From positions 1 through 64,000 of the forward strand of contig JAFYQK010000021.1 in NCBI GenBank assembly GCA_017547165.1: a stretch of DNA of 64,000 bases, written 5' to 3'. The notes under the pieces are model-generated. The model was given only the letters and a program-made list of their open reading frames with translations. It was not told where the DNA came from and made no database searches. This DNA comes from Bacteroidaceae bacterium (lineage in GTDB: Bacteria; Bacteroidota; Bacteroidia; Bacteroidales; Bacteroidaceae). Positions within the stretch are counted from its first letter, which is position 1; each line of letters opens with the position of its first letter. Below, piece by piece: positions 26,956-43,481 of the stretch. The position numbers and the translations under genes are program-made.

Positions 26956-26987
26956 TTTGGTGATGTCGGGGATTTTGTGTATATTTG
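26956..26987 (+). promoter_or_regulatory. Promoter of the fusion gene-aroB unit
   Basis: TTTG, 20 bases, TATATTTG: a full consensus match. Predicted transcription start near 26992, about 14 bases before the ATG at 27006. Confidence 0.72.
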
Positions 26988-27005
26988 CACAAAACTGCAT
27001 TAAAA

Positions 27006-30000
27006 ATGAATAGACAAATTGATTGCTTTATTCCTTGGTCTGACGACTCGCAATGTGTTCTTACCAAGCAAGCGTTGATATCCGATAACAATGTTGCCAA
27101 TGTTTTACAGTTAACAGAAAGTGTTGGTGCTACCAAAACAATAAAATATATTGCAGAAACGGCTTCGGCACCATATGTGTTGCTTTACACCAAGTACGAT
27201 ACTTTGCAGCTTGGATTTCATGCTCTTGATCGCATGCTCACTGTGGCTAAAGACTATGATGCCTTAATGCTCTATGCGGATCATTATATAGAATTACCTT
27301 CTGGCAAACGTCAGCCAATGCCATTGATAGATTATCAGGTGGGTAGTGTAAGAGATGATTTTCAGATGGGTAGTTTGCTTCTTCTAAAGACTGAGGTATT
27401 AAAGAGGTATATTTCTCAGCCTAATCTGCATCGTTATCAATATGCTGCCCTATACGATTTGCGCCTCTTCCTGTCACGCGAGAAATTGCCGGTCCATATT
27501 CAGGAGTTTCTTTATACAGAGGTGGAGACTGATACTCGTTTGTCTGGACAGAAACAGTTTGACTATGTGGATCCTCGTAATAGGGTTCGCCAGGTAGAAC
27601 TTGAACGTGCATGTACGCGCCATTTGCGTGCTATCAATGCGTATCTCCATGCCGGAGAGTTTGATACCATCAAGTTTGAGGATTCTGATAAGTTTAATGT
27701 AGAAGCTACTGTTGTAATACCCGTTCGTGATCGTGTTCGTACTATAGCAGATGCTATTGAGAGTGTACTTAAGCAGAAAACCGCCTTTACCTTTAATATA
27801 ATGGTGGTTGATAACGGATCTACTGATGGTACATCTAATGTAATAGAAAAATATACTGCCGACCCTAGAGTTATTCATATCCAGCCTCAACGCAATGACT
27901 TAGGTATTGGTGGATGTTGGAATATGGCTGTTCATGACGATAGGGTGGGACGTTTTGTAGTACAGTTGGATAGTGATGATCTCTATAGTGGGGAAGATAC
28001 TTTGCAGCGCATTGTGGACATGTTCTTCCAAGAGAATGCCGCAATGGTGATTGGAAGCTATAGAATGTGTGATTTCCAACTTGAAACTTTGCCTCCAGGT
28101 TTGATTGATCACCGCGAATGGACTTCTCAAAATGGACGCAACAATGCTTTGCGCATTAATGGTCTCGGTGCCCCACGTGCATTCTATACTCCTGTTTTGA
28201 GGGAATTACAAATTCCCAATACTAGTTATGGCGAGGATTATGCTTTAGGTCTTATGATAAGCCGTCGTTATCGTATCGGACGCATCTATGATGAGTTGTA
28301 TCTGTGTCGCAGATGGGAAGGTAATAGTGATGCGGCTTTAAGTCAGGAGAAAATAAATAGGAACAATTCTTATAAGGATCAGTTGCGTACTCAAGAGATA
28401 CAAGCTAGATGTCTTTTGAATAAATTGTGGCAACACGAAGTAAATGCCGAGGAAGTGGAGAACTTCTTCCAATCAGAAGTGGAGAATTGGGATCTTGCGC
28501 GTGATAATTACGCTAACCTTGATAAGGCAGAAAGCCGCACCCTCGTCCTTAAGTCAGAAGACGGTAGACTTGCTGATAGCCGAGGTCTGCAAGAGATTAG
28601 TCTTGCTGTTCAATGGAATCCTGCCCGTATTGTCTCTACAGGAGCAAGTGTTACACCTGAGGCCATTGAGGCGCGCCCCTGTTTCCTTTGTGATCACAAC
28701 CGACCAAAGCAACAGAGTTCACTTAAGATGGAAAAGCATTACCAAATATTGGTAAATCCATATCCCATTCTTCCTCAGCACTTCACAATTCCTGCGCGTC
28801 GACACACTCCCCAGCAGATATGGACCCATTTTGGGACAATGCGTCATATGGCGTGGACAATGCCTAAACACATCGTATTCTACAATGGTCCGAAGTGCGG
28901 AGCTTCTTGTCCCGATCACATGCATCTTCAAGCTGGTCTGCGTGGCATAGTGCCAATAGAGAGGGATTGGAAGATGTACGAAAACAACCTGCGTAAAATA
29001 TATCCTCTTACAGGCGAACAGACTGCCTCAATGCACGAGGCAGGTAACAATAGCGATAGATGTGGACTATTTGTACTTGAAGGTTATCCATGTCCCGTGT
29101 TTGTTATACGTAGTTTGCCTTCAGATACCGATAGTCTTTTGTGCCAAAGATTATATCAAACATTGCCTGTTATTGAAGGCGAAACAGAACCACGCATCAA
29201 CCTTATTGCATGGCGTCAGGAAGGAGGAATTGGCAGAGAGGACGAAATAGTTACCGTTATTTTCCCACGTAAGAAACATCGTCCCAACTGTTATTATGCT
29301 GATGGCGAAGAACGCCTGGTGGTTTCTCCTGGTGCTTTGGATATGGGTGGTTTGTTGATCACTCCCCGTGAGGAGGATTTTCGTCGCATTACTTCCGAAC
29401 ACTTCGTATGCATATTGCAGGAGGTTAGTTTGACCACTGAAGAGATACAACCTATTATTGCCAGCATTACCGATGCTCCGCAAGAGGAAAAAACATCCCT
29501 TGGATCAATGTCTAATGCCCACCCAGTATCGGTGCCCGGGTATGAACAAGCCGAGGAAACTCAGGTTGCTGTGGGTATTATGAGTGACACTAGAATATCG
29601 TTCCAAATCAATGGAGAATATACAGCTAAAGGACATAATGTCAGTGGTGTCCAAGAGGTGGAACTGGAGGATGGTTCTATCCGCTGGAACGGTCAGTTAT
29701 ATCAAGATCTTACATTCCGTCCAGTAGAACAACCCGATGGCGCGGTATCAAGTTTCTCATTACATAATGTTACCATAGGTGTTAGTTTCCATTGGGAACG
29801 TCAAGAGATGCAGACTTTCCAGGGTATACTTAATTTCACCGTTCACGAAGATAAGATAGTTGCCATAAACAAACTTTCTGTTGAGGATTATCTCTCAAGT
29901 GTCATTTCAAGTGAGATGAATGCCAATTGTCCGAAGGAGTTCCTTAAGGCTGCCGCAGTGATAAGTCGAAGTTGGCTTCTTGCACAAATACAAAAGCGCA

Positions 30001-30803
30001 AGTCACTGGGAGAGCAGAATCAAGCATTTTTTGCTTTCACAAAGACAGATAAAGAGATAGTTCGATGGCGCGATCGTGAGGACCATACCATCTTTGATGT
30101 CTGTGCTGACGATCATTGTCAAAGATATCAAGGCATCACTCGTGCCACCAATCCCCAAGCGCGTGAGGCTGTAGAGTCTACACGAGGCGAAGTACTGGTG
30201 TATGAAGGAGAAATATGTGACGCACGTTTCTCTAAATGTTGTGGTGGTAGAACCGAGGAGTTTAAGTATGCTTGGGAGAATATTCATAAGCCATATTTGC
30301 AAAGTGTTGCGGATCCCTACTGTAATACTCATGATTGGGAACTGTTATCTCGTGTACTCAATAAATATGACCAAGAGACAGAGAATTTTTATGAATGGGA
30401 TTTAACTATAAACCAGAAAGATTTGTCGGTATTGCTGAAAGAGCGATATGGATATGAGTTTGGAGAGATTCTTGCTCTAAATGCTATAGAGCGTGGTCCT
30501 GGAGGTCATCTTTCCAAACTTGAGATAGTAGGCACAGAGCATACCCTTGTTATTGGCAAGGAACTTGAGATACGCCGAGCCTTGAGCAAGACTCACCTTC
30601 TTTCCAGTGCTTTTGAAATTGCTCCGATTCTTGTGGATGGAACAGAGATACCTTGCGGCTTTAATCTTCATGGATATGGCTGGGGACATGGAGTCGGTAT
30701 GTGTCAGATAGGTGCGGCGGTAATGGGCCAGCAGGGACATCCTTATCAAGATATATTGAAGTTCTACTATACTGGTGCCGATGTTGTTAAGGTAATAAAA
30801 TAA
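27006..30803 (+). CDS. Glycosyltransferase - DUF4922 - SpoIID/LytB fusion
   Basis: The 1265-residue protein combines three modules. Residues 1-230 resemble a second, degenerate glycosyltransferase-like domain. Residues 234-500 are a GT2 domain, starting ATVVIPVRD, with [12 protein letters not shown] and a QLDSDD metal motif near 320-325. Residues about 508-850 are DUF4922, with a C559-x-x-C562 pair in RPCFLC and an H-x-H-x-Q triad, HMHLQ, at 638-642, as in the HIT/GalT phosphorylase superfamily. Residues about 855-1265 are SpoIID/LytB, with [14 protein letters not shown] (about 959-972), [10 protein letters not shown] and [15 protein letters not shown] (about 1223-1237). No signal peptide is visible. 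The ATG at 27006 fits the promoter better than the upstream ATG at 26985. aroB follows after 16 bp. Activity unknown. Confidence 0.85.
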
Positions 30804-36865: not shown

Positions 36866-37792
36866 CTAAATCCATTTCTTATGCCTGAAGAACCACCAGA
36901 AGAGTAGTGTTATTAAGGTGGTGAGCACTATAGCCAGCGGGAATCCCCACCACACGCTCTCCATGCCGTTGATCAGGTTCATGCCGAACAACGATGCCAT
37001 CAATGTGGGGAACATCATGATAATGGAGATGGATGTAAGCATCTTCATTACTTGCGACACATTATTGTTGATAAGGTTGGCATATGTGTCCATTGTTGAG
37101 TCCAAGATGTTGGTGTAAATGCCTGCCGTTTCGCGAGCCTGGGCAAACTCGATATTAACGTCCTCAATAAGATCGGCATCCAGCTCGTCAACCTTTAACT
37201 TGAACTTTAGCTTTGAAAGCAAAGTTTCGTTACCTCGGATAGAAGTGACGAAATAAGTCAGCGAATCTTGAAGACGTGACAAAGCTATGAGGTCGGCGTT
37301 GTCTACCTTGCGATCAAGGTTTCTTTTGCTCTGGTCGATAAGCGACTGTATCTGTTTCAGACGCTTCAAGTACCATACTGCACTACTCAGGAACAGACGG
37401 AACACCATATCAACCGAATCGGTGAAACCCAAACCGCGTCTTTGTTGGTAGGTGACAAAATCAATCATCATATTTGTCTCGAAATAACAAACACTGATGC
37501 AGATATCGTCCTTCATGATAATACCCAACGGGATAGTCGTGTAAGGAGTGCGAGAGCGAACCTCCTTGACATAAGGGATACGCAGAATTATCAGCGCCCA
37601 TCCTTCGTCGCGGTCATAGCGAGGCCGCTCATCGGTATCGGCAATGTCACCAAGGAAATATTCGGGTATGCCCAGTGACTGCTGCAGAAACTGAGTGTCC
37701 TCCTCGTTGGGACAAGTTACCTGAACCCAACAGTTTGGAGCCCATTCATCTATGGTGTGTAATCCGTTTTGAGTGTTCCAAAAAGTTATCAC
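36866..37792 (-). CDS. CorA-family divalent-metal channel
   Basis: The 308-residue protein has a long soluble N-terminal part (about 1-245) and two C-terminal membrane helices with the family GMN motif between them, in ASLFGMNLING. The C-terminus is short and basic (FRHKKWI), as in CorA. It probably moves Mg2+ or a similar ion. The start codon is GTG at 37792. TATATTTG on the minus strand (37839-37832) may be its -7 box, 39 bases before the start. Exact ion selectivity is not clear. Confidence 0.9.
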   Translation of the reverse strand: MITFWNTQNGLHTIDEWAPNCWVQVTCPNEEDTQFLQQSLGIPEYFLGDIADTDERPRYDRDEGWALIILRIPYVKEVRSRTPYTTIPLGIIMKDDICISVCYFETNMMIDFVTYQQRRGLGFTDSVDMVFRLFLSSAVWYLKRLKQIQSLIDQSKRNLDRKVDNADLIALSRLQDSLTYFVTSIRGNETLLSKLKFKLKVDELDADLIEDVNIEFAQARETAGIYTNILDSTMDTYANLINNNVSQVMKMLTSISIIMMFPTLMASLFGMNLINGMESVWWGFPLAIVLTTLITLLFWWFFRHKKWI

Positions 37793-38034
37793 TTCAGTAC
37801 GTTTTTAATGCCGTTCAGACAAAATTGCCTACAAATATACTAAAAAGTGCTAAAAAATAAACGCGTGGGAATGTTTTTTTATAAAAGATGTGTCTTTTTG
37901 TGTGGGTGTTGCCCGAAAAATGTGGCGGCATGCCGCATGCCTGTGGTTTGTTATGCATTGTGCTGGCAATGCAAAGGCAGAGAAACATTGCTGTTCCTCT
38001 GCCCATTGTATGCTATTGCTGGAAAAATCGATGT

Positions 38035-40197
38035 TTACCAATCCTGTGCCTTGGCGTACTCTTTGGTTGCCATTTTCCTGTCCAGCGTCTGTCGGCTGAA
38101 ACATGGGAAGATGTAGTCTTTGCCATGTGTGGCGCCAACGTTGCCAAACCATGCGGAATAGTGTTGCTTTTCCTCCTCGGGATACCAGCCCATTACCCAG
38201 TTCATGTTGGGATTGCCACCAGCTTTGTAGTCTTGATTGAAATACTTTATGAAATTGGTATTGTCGTTGAATGGATACTTCCATTCTGTTCCCTGAGAGG
38301 AGGTTATCACCTTGTAGTCGTCGTTCCACTTGTGACACAGGCCAACTGCGGTGATATAGTTGTTGCGGTCTGAATTGGGACCTGCAAATTTCAGACAAAC
38401 CCATTTCTCGTCAATGGCGGGATAGTTCATGCCTTCCTGAGACGAATCTCCACGAGGCGTGTAACCAAATTCGTCTGATTGCTTTTTCTGCAAGAATGCA
38501 ATATTTTCGATGGGAATACATGAATTCTCGTAGTCGAGAGCCACATACCAAAGCTGGTCGGTATTGTCACTTACTGACAGGAAGTTGTTGCTGGAGGTCT
38601 CTACCATCTTGCCCCACTCGTCGGAGTCGTGGAAATTCTTGTTCAGTACCAATGGAATATAGTTGCGCACAACGCCATCAGGGCCTTCAAACTGTCGGTC
38701 AGTAGCAGGCTCCTTGTGTCCGTTTTCGCCTCTTACCATCATGAAATCGGCTACGACAAGACGGTTATTTGTGGTGTCGGCGTTTTCTTTGATGTACTTG
38801 TCGAGATTTTCTTTCAACGCATTTCGGCGAGCCTCGTCGGCAGCAAGGTACCACAGGGGAATCAGGCAGCACATGTTCTCAACGGGACTATAGGACACGA
38901 GTGCAAGGTTGGAGTTTTCGTCGGCTATGCTTGCACTCCAATTGTCGAAGTCGCCAGACTCATTGCCACCACGTACTTCAAATTTGTACTCTTCTTCGCT
39001 TGTTTCCTGAAGATCGGAGTTTGAAGACTCTTTTCCATATTCTAATGTGCCACCTTGCATGGCCTGTGCCTGCAGGTATGACTCCATCCAGTTCTTGGCT
39101 TCGCCCTGTCCCTTCTTCTTGCAAGAGAGAGACAAGCTAAAGTCAGAGGAAGTAGAGGTATAGTATGATGTTGCTTTACGGCGATAGTATGCAGTGAATG
39201 TACCGCCAAACACACCACCAGTTGTGACGTGGGTGCCGTATTTGTCAAGCAATTTAGATATGCCTTCGTAGGTGTTGGGGTAGGCTTGATAGAGAGAACT
39301 TTCGGGGTTGTTTAACAAATCGTAGGCATCTTCTGACATATAAGGGGTATAGAGATCGGGACCAGAATTTTCTTCTGTGAATTTACCTCCCAAATAATAG
39401 GCAACGAAAGTCTTCTTATATATATCTATATGGTATTCGAATTCCTCGGCACTTTTTGTAGACTTGCTCCAGCCTTTAGACAGAGAACCTGTGAACATGG
39501 ACCCCTCCCAAATTTTTTTAGTCCAGTTGTTCGTGCTGCTGATGCCTACGTTGCGGGCTACTTCTGATGTTGCCTCGGAGTATGAGGCATCGCTGATTTC
39601 AGTGCCGTTTCCAACGGGGTTGTGCGATTCCTGCACCTTATTGTCTGCCCACAGAGCTTTTATGCTCAGCAAATCGAAGCGGGGAGTGGCGAGGAGCTCT
39701 CCATTGACAATGTTTACACCCTTGCCAATCTGGTCAAGATAAGGATGGGGGAGAACTACGTTTTTCATGCGCTCTTCGTCCTGACAGATTAGGTAGACTG
39801 TGTCCTTGCTTTCCTCCGATGTTTCGGCACGAGTACTGCCGGGTTTGGGTAAATATACCTTTGTGACGAACGGAGTCATGTCTGACTTGTCCTTTAGCTT
39901 CAGTACCAGGAACTCCTGCTTCTCCCCTTGTCTTACAGAGTATTCGAATCTGTCGTTTTCTGGGTCAATGCCAAGAATAGCTACTGCGTTCAGGGGAATT
40001 GCAATCTCTTCGGTAAGCCAGGGGTTGAACTTAAATACTTGCTTGCTCATGTTGCTGGTGCTTGCAAGCTCAAATTCAGCGATACTCTCCTTTTGTGGGA
40101 TGTAAATCTCTGGGGTGTCCGACTCACAGCTTGTTGTTGCAAGCACGGAGAATGCCAGCACTAATACATAGATGATGTTCGAAAATGATAATTTCAT
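38035..40197 (-). CDS. MACPF (perforin-like) domain lipoprotein
   Basis: The 720-residue protein has a lipoprotein signal with lipobox TTSC and acylated C24. The MACPF signature YGTHVTTGGVFGGTF, around residues 316-330, sits in a larger region (about 190-480) with the strand-turn pattern of perforin folds. The preceding part (about 30-180) is strand-rich and unrecognised; the last 120 residues, with W- and G-rich stretches such as MNWVMGWYPEEE, may be a binding domain. MACPF proteins make pores; in Bacteroidales some are secreted or surface toxins against related strains. It is 27 bp after the DUF3089 gene, so the two form a unit. No immunity gene is recognised. Confidence 0.82.
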   Translation of the reverse strand: MKLSFSNIIYVLVLAFSVLATTSCESDTPEIYIPQKESIAEFELASTSNMSKQVFKFNPWLTEEIAIPLNAVAILGIDPENDRFEYSVRQGEKQEFLVLKLKDKSDMTPFVTKVYLPKPGSTRAETSEESKDTVYLICQDEERMKNVVLPHPYLDQIGKGVNIVNGELLATPRFDLLSIKALWADNKVQESHNPVGNGTEISDASYSEATSEVARNVGISSTNNWTKKIWEGSMFTGSLSKGWSKSTKSAEEFEYHIDIYKKTFVAYYLGGKFTEENSGPDLYTPYMSEDAYDLLNNPESSLYQAYPNTYEGISKLLDKYGTHVTTGGVFGGTFTAYYRRKATSYYTSTSSDFSLSLSCKKKGQGEAKNWMESYLQAQAMQGGTLEYGKESSNSDLQETSEEEYKFEVRGGNESGDFDNWSASIADENSNLALVSYSPVENMCCLIPLWYLAADEARRNALKENLDKYIKENADTTNNRLVVADFMMVRGENGHKEPATDRQFEGPDGVVRNYIPLVLNKNFHDSDEWGKMVETSSNNFLSVSDNTDQLWYVALDYENSCIPIENIAFLQKKQSDEFGYTPRGDSSQEGMNYPAIDEKWVCLKFAGPNSDRNNYITAVGLCHKWNDDYKVITSSQGTEWKYPFNDNTNFIKYFNQDYKAGGNPNMNWVMGWYPEEEKQHYSAWFGNVGATHGKDYIFPCFSRQTLDRKMATKEYAKAQDW

Positions 40198-40224
40198 ATG
40201 TAGAATATTTTAGGGGGGGGATTA

Positions 40225-41223
40225 TTACTGTTCGCTGAAATAAGCGTCTATCCTTTTCTGTGCATTCTCGGCAATGTTGTAATAGTATAGCTTAAAATCG
40301 CACCCATGCAGGGCATATTCGCCAATACCCTGCTCGTTCTCAGGCTGCTCAGGCATACCTACTATAAGAACTTCGTACTTACGTGCGGGGTCGTACATTA
40401 CCTGGGCAGAGTAGCGCTCGCGTGTGCTGAGTGCTCCAAGGTTTCGGGGGTCATCTGCCTCCACCTTCTCGTAGTCGTGCTTCCATGAAATGGGGTTTAT
40501 GGACATGGCCCCTTCGTGGCATACCAGATTGTATGAACCGAATTCTCCGTTTTCCATGCGTTCGCAATTCCATGAGATTACCACACGTGTGTCGGTCTCT
40601 CCTTCGGCAAACTTCAGGTGAGTGTTTTCTTCAAAGTAGTCTTGGGAATAGGAATATCCCAATGGGTAGGCAGCAACCATGCGGCCATACACCTCGGGAT
40701 GGTCTGCCATGTAGTCTGAAAGAAGGTATTTCAGTACATTAGAACCCTGCGAGTGTCCGGCCAGGATAAAAGGACGCCCGCAGTTGTAGTGTTCTAAGTA
40801 GTATTCAAATGCCGCCTTTGCATCTGAATATGGTGTGCCAGCCACCATTTCCTCCTGTTCTTCCAGGGGATAGTTGAGCAGTTTCATGGCATCCAGCTGG
40901 CGATAATAAGGTGCATATACATTGGCAACACTTTCGAAGCATGAAGCCTGTTCTTCATATACGCCTGGAACCTTTGCGCGCATGCTGGCATTGTCTATGG
41001 TATTTATAATATCGTCTTCTTCGGTTGCCTCCCAGCTGGTGGGGTAGAGATAGAACACGTCTACCGCCTTTTCAGCAGTAGAAATCTTTACCCAATTGTT
41101 GGTGTCGGAGTAATCAACGGAAGCTTGTTCGTTGGGTTCTGCCTCATCATTGTCGCAACTGCCCATGGTGAAGCTGAGCATCGCGGCCATAATAACCATT
41201 CCTGTAGCTCTAAATGTCTTCAT
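40225..41223 (-). CDS. DUF3089 lipoprotein, alpha/beta-hydrolase-like
   Basis: The 332-residue protein has a lipoprotein signal with lipobox MGSC and acylated C23. The following DUF3089 region includes DVFYLYPTSW (about 55-64) and a nucleophile elbow GHSQG at 156-160 with S158, as in alpha/beta hydrolases. A C-terminal GCDFKLYYYNIAENAQKR segment completes the family pattern. It could hydrolyse an ester or amide at the cell surface, but no substrate is known. It is the first gene of the unit with the MACPF protein and has a long leader upstream. Confidence 0.85.
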   Translation of the reverse strand: MKTFRATGMVIMAAMLSFTMGSCDNDEAEPNEQASVDYSDTNNWVKISTAEKAVDVFYLYPTSWEATEEDDIINTIDNASMRAKVPGVYEEQASCFESVANVYAPYYRQLDAMKLLNYPLEEQEEMVAGTPYSDAKAAFEYYLEHYNCGRPFILAGHSQGSNVLKYLLSDYMADHPEVYGRMVAAYPLGYSYSQDYFEENTHLKFAEGETDTRVVISWNCERMENGEFGSYNLVCHEGAMSINPISWKHDYEKVEADDPRNLGALSTRERYSAQVMYDPARKYEVLIVGMPEQPENEQGIGEYALHGCDFKLYYYNIAENAQKRIDAYFSEQ

Positions 41224-41571
41224 AATTGTAAAGTTTTATAGAATATGTTTTTTTGTTCAATCTCAATACTATGACGAAAGTTTTATGGCTTGTCATAGAG
41301 GCTTTTCCCGACTAGGCTATCTGTGCTCCAATGGGCTTTAGACCGTTTCGATTATTCAGAATGCCCTCGGAGTTTCAGCTGCTTCTAATGCTTTTGCCCT
41401 TGCAAAATAAGGCAAAAGTATTGATAAGCCTGTCGCTGTTTTACAAAAAGCAGTGTTTCAGTTTTACAAAAGATAGTTTTGAGGATGCCGTTTATATAGT
41501 GTGGTAGAAACAAAAAACGCCCATTTCATGGGAGAAATGGACGATTTGGGGATAAAACTGGCCAAGCAATC
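41224..41571. other. 348-bp control region upstream of the DUF3089-MACPF unit
   Basis: This is the longest gene-free spacer on this strand nearby. It holds a -7 box (41420-41413) and two copies of an 11-bp repeat (below). Between the promoter and the DUF3089 ATG lies a leader of about 185 bases, for which no riboswitch or clear fold was recognised. Confidence 0.6.
41413..41471 (-). promoter_or_regulatory. Promoter and direct-repeat operator of the DUF3089-MACPF unit
   Basis: Read on the minus strand: two copies of TTTTGTAAAAC, at 41471-41461 and 41448-41438, exactly 23 bp apart (about two helical turns), then the -7 box TACTTTTG at 41420-41413. TTTG inside the downstream repeat lies about 23 bases from the -7 box, so it may overlap the -33 position. 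This arrangement is typical of AraC-type activator sites. Confidence 0.5.
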
Positions 41572-42618
41572 CTATTGGTGGCCCTCTGTGGAAGACTCCA
41601 TCCACTTGTGGTAATGCCTCCATGCTGTGGAGCGATGACGGAATCCTGCATGGAAGAAAAGTTCTTGGATATTGGCTTGGGGATTGCGTTTCAACTCTTC
41701 GGCCACATAGGCTATGCGGCGTCTGGAAATGTATTCGCTGAAAGTCATTCCTACATTGCGCTTGAAGGCATCGTTTACGTAGGTGCGGTTGGAGAAGACT
41801 TGCTGCGTCAGGGTTGACAGGTTCATGTCTGGGTTGCGCCACCCCTTGTTGTCATCTATTATCACTAATATCTTCTTCCAAAGATGGTCGTGCTCAAGGT
41901 TCGTATTCGTGCTTTCTTCCAGAAGTTCAGGTTGGGCGGGCATTACAACCAGGCGTTCATTCAGTTCATAATGTGTTATTCCAAAGAAAAAGCCTGTCCA
42001 TGTAATCTGATGAAAGAGTACTAAAATGGGTGCATGAGTCAGCTGTATCAGAAAATGCAGTAGTCCAATCAGGCAGAACCCCATGGCATAGGCCATAATG
42101 AGTTTCTTGTCGACGCTGCTCCGACGCCAATCATAGGGGACAAGAAAGAGAGAAAAACAATAGAATAGCATCGTGCAAATGGCGAATAGACGAAACAACA
42201 CGTTGAACTCGCCAAGGTGCAGCCAAAGGTCGGCATAATTGTTTAAGGTAGTGTACTCGATGCCTGCACACATGCCCACGAACACCAATATAAGCAGGGG
42301 GGCTAACAACAGGGCGTACACCTTGACTTTGCTGATTGACGGCCGGATAACCTCGAGAGGATACAAGAAGAAGGTCATCTGCATGAGCAGTGGCACAAAG
42401 GTATGCTCAGGTTCAAAAAGGGTTGCGTCAACAACTAAGCTCTCGTTCCAGGTGCGAAAAATAAATACGAAGGTAGTCAGGGCAGACAACCAGCTGAATA
42501 TTGCCTGAATGTGGCGGGAATAGTCGCCAGTTTCTTTGCGGCGCCTCCATAGCAAGATGCCGCAGGCGGTGAGTCCTATGGTCATCAGCAATAGGACTAT
42601 TGTGAATATTACTTTCAT
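41572..42618 (-). CDS. Membrane-bound AraC-type regulator
   Basis: The 348-residue protein begins with about seven hydrophobic helices (residues 1-215), followed by a short linker and an AraC-type HTH domain at about 245-348. The HTH has LTQQVFSNRTYVNDAFKRNVGMTFSEYISRRR and NIQELFFHAGFRHRSTAWRHYHKW in pieces. This 7TM-HTH layout is common in Bacteroidales, where the membrane part is thought to sense an external signal. It is the gene just upstream of the DUF3089-MACPF control region, on the same strand, and lies 4 bp after rsmA. It is the likely regulator of that unit (inference). Confidence 0.85.
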   Translation of the reverse strand: MKVIFTIVLLLMTIGLTACGILLWRRRKETGDYSRHIQAIFSWLSALTTFVFIFRTWNESLVVDATLFEPEHTFVPLLMQMTFFLYPLEVIRPSISKVKVYALLLAPLLILVFVGMCAGIEYTTLNNYADLWLHLGEFNVLFRLFAICTMLFYCFSLFLVPYDWRRSSVDKKLIMAYAMGFCLIGLLHFLIQLTHAPILVLFHQITWTGFFFGITHYELNERLVVMPAQPELLEESTNTNLEHDHLWKKILVIIDDNKGWRNPDMNLSTLTQQVFSNRTYVNDAFKRNVGMTFSEYISRRRIAYVAEELKRNPQANIQELFFHAGFRHRSTAWRHYHKWMESSTEGHQ

Positions 42619-42622
42619 GAAG

Positions 42623-43402
42623 TTACTTCTTGGTATCTGCCATGTGTATTGTTATGTCATTGGTCAGCAGTATGAATTGCTCTACGGAAAGTTGCTCCGG
42701 ACGCATGGTTCCAAACGGATGCTCTGCTGGAATCAGCCCCTTCAGCGAGCCTCTCAGCATCTTTCTTCTTTGCTGGAAACTCTGCTTAACTATGCGTGTG
42801 AGCAGCGCGACATCGCACCCGGGGTCGGTGACACCGTTGCGTGTCATGCGTATCACAGCAGAATGCACCTTGGGCGGCGGGTTGAACACACCTGGAGGCA
42901 CGGTGAAGAGGTAATCCACATCGTACCACAGCTGTATGAGCACCGTGATGATGCCGAAGGCCTTTGTGCCGGGCTTGGCAGCCAAACGTTCGGCAACTTC
43001 CTTCTGTATCATGCCCGTACAACATGGGATATAATCCTTGAAGTCAAGCATCTTGAAGAATATCTGTGATGAGATGTTGTAGGGGTAGTTGCCGGTGAGT
43101 ACAAATTTGCCTCCATCGAAGGTGCGGTCAAGGTGCATTTTCAGGAAATCGTCGGCAATGATGTTGTCTTCAAACTCGGGATATGTCTTGCGCAGGTATT
43201 CCACGCTTTCTGAGTCCAGTTCCACCACTTTCAGTGGGCGTGGCTTCTGCATCAGGTATTGGGTCATTACACCCATGCCAGGACCTACCTCAAGTACGGG
43301 TATGTCTGGATATGCGTCAACAGTGTCGGCAATGCGCTTTGCTATGCTGAGGTCTGTCAAAAAATGCTGTCCGAGAAACTTTTTCGGCTTAACGAGGGGC
43401 AT
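42623..43402 (-). CDS. rsmA: 16S rRNA dimethyladenosine transferase
   Basis: The 259-residue enzyme dimethylates A1518 and A1519 of 16S rRNA. KPKKFLGQHFL at 5-15, SAM-binding EVGPGMGVMTQ at 38-48 and the catalytic NYPYNI at 105-110 are family motifs, and RRKMLRGSL lies in the C-terminal domain. The ATG at 43402 matches family starts (MPLVKPKKF) better than an upstream ATG at 43429. The AraC-type regulator gene follows after 4 bp and may be read through. Confidence 0.96.
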   Translation of the reverse strand: MPLVKPKKFLGQHFLTDLSIAKRIADTVDAYPDIPVLEVGPGMGVMTQYLMQKPRPLKVVELDSESVEYLRKTYPEFEDNIIADDFLKMHLDRTFDGGKFVLTGNYPYNISSQIFFKMLDFKDYIPCCTGMIQKEVAERLAAKPGTKAFGIITVLIQLWYDVDYLFTVPPGVFNPPPKVHSAVIRMTRNGVTDPGCDVALLTRIVKQSFQQRRKMLRGSLKGLIPAEHPFGTMRPEQLSVEQFILLTNDITIHMADTKK

Positions 43403-43419
43403 ATATAGGATTTTTTTGT

Positions 43420-43427
43420 ATTTTTGC
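43420..43427 (+). promoter_or_regulatory. -7 box (TATTTTTG) of the flippase-like gene
   Basis: TATTTTTG matches TAnnTTTG on the plus strand. Predicted start is near 43432, about 50 bases before the GTG at 43482. The -33 region shows no clear TTTG. It lies in the 79-bp gap between the divergent rsmA and flippase-like genes. Confidence 0.4.
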
Positions 43428-43481
43428 ATACGAAGATACGGAGATTTAAGTAATGTACCAAAGAAATCGCCTTTTTATTTT

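Follow-up and report, generated by a model that had tools for sequence, protein, structure and literature searches.

A regulator gene, an esterase-family gene and a perforin-like gene exchanged as one DNA block among Bacteroidaceae: a possible antagonism cassette

We analyzed a 64,000-nucleotide stretch (the window) of contig JAFYQK010000021.1 from a Bacteroidaceae bacterium (assembly GCA_017547165.1), whose genome comprises 2.26 Mb in 26 contigs and is 84.5% complete. The closest named carriers of the genes described here are two Bacteroidaceae metagenome-assembled genomes, RGIG9558 (yak colon) and RGIG7470 (water buffalo colon). An earlier note on this DNA had described a two-gene unit at 38035-41223, consisting of a MACPF (perforin-fold) lipoprotein gene and a DUF3089 lipoprotein gene 27 bp apart on the same strand. 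We reproduced the coordinates and the 27-bp gap, but the unit proved to be larger, since it also contains an AraC-family regulator gene (41572-42618, minus strand) and occupies a block of DNA at about 37,870-42,700, between ksgA and corA. No integrase-like or other plausible gene is seen within the block in the window's list of open reading frames (ORFs). The main features are as follows.

36866-37792: corA, flank of the block
37870-42700, no strand assigned: transferred block between ksgA and corA, about 4.8 kb; edges approximate, taken from 100-base identity steps
38035-40197, minus strand: MACPF lipoprotein gene, 720 aa (ORF call, Pfam, profile, structure comparison)
40225-41223, minus strand: DUF3089 (family XV esterase) lipoprotein gene, 332 aa (ORF call, Pfam, alignment)
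41572-42618, minus strand: AraC-family regulator gene, 348 aa, with a C-terminal HTH_18 domain at residues 272-343 (Pfam)
42623-43429: ksgA, flank of the block

The block is far more similar between species than the DNA around it. Between the window and a second genome, G336, nucleotide identity is 98.0% in the AraC gene, 97.4% in the intergenic DNA, 99.1% in the DUF3089 gene, and 96.2% in the MACPF gene, compared with 88.2% in ksgA, 81.9% in corA, and 79.1% in the DUF349 gene. Measured per 100 bases, identity is 95-100% from about 42,700 to 37,900, with dips to 85-93% inside the MACPF gene; outside the block it is 81-93% in ksgA and 57-87% across corA, the DUF349 gene, and their intergenic stretches, and the block edges appear as sharp steps. 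Synonymous divergence (dS) is 0.049, 0.020, and 0.093 in the AraC, DUF3089, and MACPF genes, compared with 0.63 in ksgA, 2.1 in corA, and a saturated, not computable value in the DUF349 gene. A third genome, G341, gives a similar picture: its identity to the window is 96.6% over the first 294 bases of the AraC gene, 98.4% in the DUF3089 gene, and 97.6% in the MACPF gene, compared with 87.2% in ksgA, 81.0% in corA, and 78.2% in the DUF349 gene. We place the G341 block at the same site because its contig ends in sequence that also begins the corA contig, and a further contig spans the junction of ksgA and the AraC gene. Bin contamination is ruled out, as the block and its diverged flanks lie on one contig both in the window and in G336. 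These comparisons show that the AraC, DUF3089, and MACPF genes arrived as a single block of DNA in the ksgA-corA gap of three species-level genomes.

The site is empty in close relatives. Among 139 genomes sampled from the genus, 128 have a corA match, and we fetched 20 corA neighborhoods from the top of that list. In 11 of these, ksgA lies directly beside corA; they comprise the six genomes closest by CorA besides the carriers (G334, G340, G259, G302, G180, and G414) and five more distant ones. The remaining loci have another gene in between (four), have no ksgA within reach (four), or are the G341 corA contig (one). In the six closest relatives the ksgA-corA gap is bare and measures 111-135 bp, counted from the end of the KsgA alignment, so the block seems to have been inserted rather than swapped for a resident gene. 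It may have been exchanged through its homologous flanks. A search of viral contigs and plasmids found no relatives of the MACPF protein, and the 15 plasmid records matching DUF3089 were all below 60% identity, none of them labeled Bacteroidales.

The two lipoproteins named in the earlier note bear up well under closer analysis. The MACPF protein matches PF01823 over residues 309-428 (profile positions 67-183 of 214; 36.9 bits, cut-off 21.5; E = 5.5e-9 in Pfam) and has the perforin motif as described, with YGTH at 320 and GGVFGG at 327. Its hydrophobic leader ends in LATTSC, by a pattern judged by eye, and Cys24 is invariant in six homologues; the protein is thus predicted to be a lipoprotein with a lipidated Cys24. 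Acidic residues follow this cysteine directly (CESDTPE) and may correspond to the lipoprotein export signal (LES) consensus for surface export. A profile built from the six homologues aligned with the solved MACPF protein Mpf2Ba1 over residues 187-465 (whole-sequence E = 7.6e-5). In that search of PDB sequences, only two Mpf2Ba1 sequences scored below E = 0.1, and the other 13 matches (E = 0.1-0.9) were mixed, including complement C6 (E = 0.37), exfoliative toxins, and ClpB. As a single sequence, the protein matched nothing in PDB sequences or in NCBIfam to E = 1. We divide it as follows.

Start to Cys24: signal peptide with lipobox Cys24
About 25-185: N-terminal region, no recognized domain
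About 187-465: MACPF domain
About 477-636: probable beta-prism, from a structural model
637-720: tail, no recognized domain

Since the six-homologue profile match spans 187-465, the MACPF domain is followed by about 250 residues and not by 120 as previously described, while the N-terminal region is as unrecognized as before. The C-terminal part had been proposed to target a receptor, and this is plausible, as its first 160 residues resemble an MABP beta-prism in a weak model. A full-length AlphaFold model was unusable (mean predicted local distance difference test score [pLDDT], 34); for the C-terminal part, the best of five models reached a mean pLDDT of 50.8 and the other four 34-37. A Foldseek comparison with known structures found nothing at E = 0.001 or below, and beta-prisms were listed only on a second look by VIA-align, the best fold matches being those of Mpf2Ba1 and of a Photorhabdus MACPF protein. 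A profile of the C terminus found nothing in PDB sequences to E = 10 and nothing credible in Pfam. From the model, the MACPF domain is probably followed by an MABP-like beta-prism over the first ~160 residues of the C-terminal part.

The identity of the DUF3089 protein is unambiguous (PF11288, residues 54-249; 159.3 bits, above the cut-off; E = 1.2e-46 in Pfam). Its lipobox Cys23 and its GHSQG motif are as described earlier, the motif lying at residues 156-160 with Ser158 as the nucleophile; the description "hydrolase-like" can be sharpened, since esterase activity has been measured in this family (PMC4431682). The measured activity is that of Est10, a GHSQG esterase from bovine rumen that performs best on C4 esters and whose closest relative, Est5S, is also ruminal (PMC4431682). 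The C-terminal HGCD of the window protein places His306 and Asp309 at the same spacing as Est10 His341/Asp344, a catalytic assignment that is itself putative (PMC4431682). Across an alignment of 58 DUF3089 sequences, the window's included, Ser158 is present in all 58; 44 of them have a residue at position 306, which is always His, and position 309 is occupied by Asp (25 sequences) or Glu (19 sequences). We therefore predict an esterase-family lipoprotein with its catalytic residues in place. The window protein has the DUF3089 domain, the GHSQG motif, and the His-x-x-Asp near the C-terminal end in common with Est10, Est5S, and other family XV esterases, but differs from Est10 and Est5S in being a predicted lipoprotein encoded in an operon with a MACPF gene (PMC4431682). 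In a tree of the 58 sequences, the cassette genes join a clade whose members adjoin other hydrolase genes, with a support of only 0.80. Other genomes of the genus encode DUF3089 fusions with an AraC-type regulator nearby, one with an amidohydrolase (888 aa; L128:5074-7740) and one with a carboxylesterase (857 aa; L134:3730-6303).

The AraC gene lies upstream of the DUF3089-MACPF pair on the same strand. Several hydrophobic segments in the N-terminal two thirds of its product, before HTH_18, suggest a membrane-anchored sensor. Two candidate signals lie between the regulator gene and the pair.

41518-41543, minus strand: terminator-like stem-loop just 3' of the AraC gene (consensus match only)
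41413-41420, minus strand: TACTTTTG, possibly a -7 promoter element of the Bacteroidales type, 189 nt upstream of the ATG of the DUF3089 gene (pattern match only)

The stem-loop, in a region with 10 terminator-like sites where 5.3 are expected, suggests that the DUF3089-MACPF pair is transcribed separately from the AraC gene, and the two lipoproteins are probably made from one transcript. We read TACTTTTG against TAnnTTTG, the consensus of the Bacteroidales -7 element. We compared the cassette regulator with seven AraC genes that adjoin other DUF3089 genes; significant matches were confined to the DNA-binding end with one exception, a weak 251-residue alignment (20% identity, E = 0.008), and we dropped the idea of a common origin because the matches were mostly to that end only. 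AraC-type regulators 32-35% identical to the cassette's also precede single genes of about 2,000-3,170 codons in five of seven loci (L234:7162-17714, L235, L237, L238, and L240), one of these genes having a Laminin_G_3 domain; at L237 one gene stands between the regulator and the giant gene, L240 ends at a contig end, and at L236 and L239 genes of 990 and 469 codons take the place of the giant genes.

G336 carries a second, older locus (G336:C182), with another MACPF copy that is 73% identical. Its order is AraC (59% identical, or 56% in another comparison), three large genes (L232:6624-15985), and MACPF. The large genes, of 1,023, 997, and 991 codons, have lipoprotein-like leaders as read by eye, and the first has a GLUG motif; one of them, searched against eight near genomes, gave only two short matches of 32-34%. 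Between the AraC gene and the first large gene lies what looks like a decayed DUF3089 gene. Its leader reads MKTVRAIGM where that of the cassette reads MKTFRATGM, with identity at 43 of 60 bases. The stretch from 76 bases after the ATG matches DUF3089 residues 50-78 (13 of 29 identical), with E = 5e-7 when the intergenic stretch is searched alone and E = 0.001 when two loci are searched; the score of 33.1 bits exceeds the maximum of 23.9 in 500 base shuffles. The leader alone is not evidence for a remnant, because the two-locus search also returned, at E = 0.003, what is merely another lipoprotein leader. The case rests on residues 50-78 and the leader occurring in order at the expected place. 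At least 7 of the first 10 residues are common only to the cassette DUF3089 genes among 757 M-starting ORFs compared. The MACPF copies of the two loci are near-saturated at synonymous sites (dS = 1.8-1.9), and since the second locus has the same outer genes together with the remnant, the order AraC-DUF3089-MACPF probably existed before the two loci diverged. No other finding speaks as strongly as the second locus for a pairing that did not arise by chance, or as strongly against its being obligatory. The intact first-locus DUF3089 protein of G336 could act in trans for the second locus. A search for a shared operator downstream of the two AraC genes was unsuccessful (best local score, 21; shuffle mean, 20.7; shuffle maximum, 29).

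Along the MACPF gene itself, differences between carriers are clustered. Against G336, 28 of 96 differences fall within codons 195-245 (150 of 2,163 bases), and against G341, 25 of 51 fall within codons 5-135 (390 bases), values that none of 200 shuffles reached. Uneven constraint could produce such clusters, but dS between the window and G336 is itself uneven, at 0.35 in codons 185-305 and 0.03 in codons 24-150, which favors exchange with alleles not found in our sample; on these sequence grounds, we favor reading the divergent segments as the clustered differences expected of exchanged alleles. Gene conversion of the first-locus gene in G336 from its second copy was rejected, as the divergent segment resembles that copy no more closely.

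The pairing is rare. Within the genus, the MACPF protein has strong matches in 3 of the 139 genomes (four places) and weak ones in 3, while the DUF3089 protein has 77 matches in 55 genomes, two of them pieces of one place in G387. Three of the 77 adjoin a cassette-type MACPF gene; a further 26 stretches around DUF3089 matches, some ending at contig ends, contain no homologue of the cassette MACPF, a search that a distant MACPF could escape. In a sample of 301 genomes from the family, compared as lists by eye, MACPF occurs in 30 (29 over the cut-off) and DUF3089 in 74. We also retrieved 77 stretches around MACPF matches, some of which overlap and which do not cover every match, with the window's own stretch left out and that of the second locus ending short of the remnant; only four match a DUF3089 profile, and each of these is a cassette stretch from one of two genomes. 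A pattern scan of a collection of species genomes with the MACPF alignment, which requires conserved peptides and may not include the window's own genome, returned four loci, three in two carriers and one, 25% identical, in Candidatus Equimonas faecalis. None of the titles and abstract openings listed pairs a MACPF protein with a DUF3089 protein or an esterase, which is not proof of absence. The earlier note held that a lack of conserved pairing across genomes would count against a functional unit, and the outcome is divided: we found no pairing outside the lineage in the genus and family samples, but within it the block with both genes occurs in three genomes, and the older locus probably has a decayed remnant of the partner.

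Several other MACPF loci came to light during these surveys. In Candidatus Equimonas faecalis, a 745-codon ORF separates the neighboring genes of two distant MACPF proteins of 771 and 769 aa (L146:3023-11971, the same place as L126); the first protein retains a DLN motif of the kind described for the beta-prism of Mpf2Ba1. At L107:2433-10484 (genome G219) and L110:3477-14001 (genome G110), MACPF genes are clustered in twos or threes, and L105, L109, and L111 resemble these clusters by ORF lengths only. Both clusters include a protein that joins an ANF_receptor-like domain to a Peptidase_C13 (legumain-like) domain, and L107 also has a Bmp-like protein; a protease beside several pore-formers could be an activation system.

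Going by what is known of the BSAPs, a surface MACPF lipoprotein of Bacteroidales most likely forms pores in related bacteria, with the C-terminal domain choosing the receptor (PMC12853789, PMC4999547). A transport or nutrient role has been suggested for Bth-MACPF (PMC2954219). BSAP-1 to BSAP-4 resemble the window protein in having a MACPF domain, a lipoprotein signal, a variable C-terminal domain, a patchy presence, and a co-acquired neighbor (PMC4999547, PMC12853789), so the earlier comparison with BSAP-type proteins stands for domain and signal sequence. Elsewhere the likeness ends: the window protein has about 140 residues with no recognized domain before its MACPF domain, a region that in over 80% of surveyed BSAPs consists of a disordered tether only (PMC12853789, PMC4999547), and its probable beta-prism C terminus was not matched to the DUF5648 or D2/D3 groups. 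The genes for BSAP-1 and BSAP-2 adjoin a resistant target gene, thought to be co-acquired, so that producers escape via a nontargeted receptor version (PMC4999547). That pattern, in which the neighbor replaces a sensitive allele that has been lost, is reported for BSAP-1 and BSAP-2 and is not required of all BSAPs (PMC4999547). It is not what we see here, where the block looks like a pure insertion with esterase and AraC partners, and the six closest relatives have an empty site. In a two-component CDCL system of Bacteroidota, a surface lipoprotein encoded upstream in the operon blocks the pore and neutralizes the toxin (PMC11169675). The window pair could work alike, as it too has a lipoprotein gene upstream of a pore-former in an operon, but the pore-former is a single MACPF protein and the partner is an alpha/beta hydrolase rather than a 30.4-kDa immunity lipoprotein (PMC11169675). 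PF01289, the CDCL marker in that paper, is absent from our Pfam scan to E = 1, and the block has only one pore-former gene. Mpf2Ba1 and Plu-MACPF (PDB 8b6u and 2qp2) have the same succession of MACPF domain and beta-prism and include the best profile match (Mpf2Ba1) and the best structure matches, but lack the extra N-terminal region and the 85-residue tail of the window protein. Neither is known to be a lipoprotein of Bacteroidales.

Based on these observations, we tentatively propose, with a probability of about 0.4, that the block is a laterally transferred three-gene antagonism cassette in which a BSAP-like pore-former is accompanied by an esterase that protects the producer by target editing. 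By our analysis, the MACPF protein is most likely a BSAP-like interbacterial pore-former, and the esterase most likely alters a surface ester for self-protection or activity. In such a cassette, the AraC regulator would sense an envelope or neighbor cue and switch on the DUF3089-MACPF transcript, and both lipoproteins would be exported to the cell surface. The MACPF protein, released or presented, would dock through its C-terminal beta-prism on a surface molecule of related bacteria and oligomerize into a beta-barrel pore. Least certain is the role of the DUF3089 protein, which might remove a short acyl ester, such as an O-acetyl group, from a surface glycan or lipid of the producer, so that the producer would no longer show the form bound by the MACPF protein. 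Self-protection would then be achieved by target editing and not by target-gene replacement as in BSAP-1 and BSAP-2 producers. Because its gene has traveled between species with the regulator and perforin-like genes, the esterase is a good choice of candidate for this role. A toxin with an accessory or self-protection partner was already proposed in the earlier note; the co-transfer as a block and the decayed partner at the second locus add to that idea, and the lack of pairing outside the lineage detracts from it.

A number of findings weigh against this proposal. Several other Bacteroides MACPF proteins had no antimicrobial activity when tested (PMC4999547). Across the family sample, MACPF and DUF3089 occur together in 7 of 301 genomes where 7.4 are expected, which is no association. 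Among the DUF3089 genes most similar to the cassette's (37-49% identical) are some that adjoin or are fused to carboxylesterase or amidohydrolase genes (at all four loci scanned, which were picked by eye), suggesting an ordinary hydrolytic role, and genomes G000 and G336 each have a second DUF3089 gene elsewhere, 31-32% identical, with no MACPF neighbor. At the second locus the DUF3089 gene has decayed and three large lipoprotein-like genes now separate AraC from MACPF, so a MACPF gene does not strictly need the esterase. The call of a beta-prism depends on a model with a mean pLDDT of only 50.8.

Some of these findings would be expected if a MACPF toxin gene simply stands beside an unrelated, regulated esterase, with AraC-DUF3089 as an ester-scavenging module and the MACPF gene hitchhiking on a common promoter. 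The hydrolase neighbors and different AraC-type regulators of other DUF3089 genes in the same clade fit this explanation, as does the lack of a MACPF-DUF3089 association outside the lineage in the samples examined. We nevertheless consider it doubtful, given that the three genes moved together between species, that two loci whose MACPF genes have so high a dS both comprise AraC, DUF3089 or its remnant, and MACPF, and that the cassette regulator is not orthologous to the seven AraC genes compared. It is improbable that the esterase is instead an offensive helper that deacylates a glycan or lipid on targets or in gut mucus and so unmasks a receptor or membrane. Both proteins look like lipoproteins probably made from one transcript, and the characterized family member prefers short acyl esters (PMC4431682), but the available parts of the BSAP (PMC12853789) and CDCL (PMC11169675) papers mention no esterase requirement, the main text of PMC12853789 not containing the word esterase at all, and the second locus has kept its MACPF gene while its DUF3089 gene decayed. 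No less improbable is a MACPF protein aimed at eukaryotic cells, such as gut protozoa or host cells. The best profile match among solved structures is insecticidal (Mpf2Ba1; PMC10344926), the folds that best match the C-terminal part in the weak model are the beta-prisms of Mpf2Ba1 and of the Photorhabdus MACPF protein, MPEG1 has an MABP domain that binds acidic lipids (PMC6753088), and the two named close relatives are ruminant colon genomes. A predicted lipoprotein of a Bacteroidaceae gut bacterium is nonetheless what the BSAPs are, and patchy presence with segmental allele differences fits strain competition.

Two further regions of the window drew our attention. A 1,272-codon ORF at 26985-30803 (plus strand) combines a family 2 glycosyltransferase with DUF4922 and SpoIID domains, a combination in one ORF of which we know no other case. 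At 49241-54685 (plus strand), a bacterial alpha-2-macroglobulin (1,474 aa) is followed by a DUF4837 protein.

In the literature compared, bacterial producers of such pore-formers protect themselves either by replacing the target (BSAP-1, BSAP-2) or with a lipoprotein that blocks the toxin (a CDCL pair). We think it rather unlikely, but worth stating, that the block represents an enzymatic form of self-protection for a bacterial perforin, in which a co-transferred surface esterase edits an ester of the producer so that the beta-prism cannot engage. Besides the pore-former, a single predicted surface product moves with the block, namely an esterase of a characterized family with its catalytic residues in place. 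The block is compact and its empty site is known, and it narrows the question to a single gene, a single active-site residue, and a single class of substrate. It also provides a lead on function for the DUF3089 proteins, present in 74 of the 301 family genomes sampled. If enzymatic self-protection is correct, toxin and immunity would move together, with an enzyme providing the immunity in place of a blocker protein or a swapped receptor, and one cassette could work in recipients with different surface genes.

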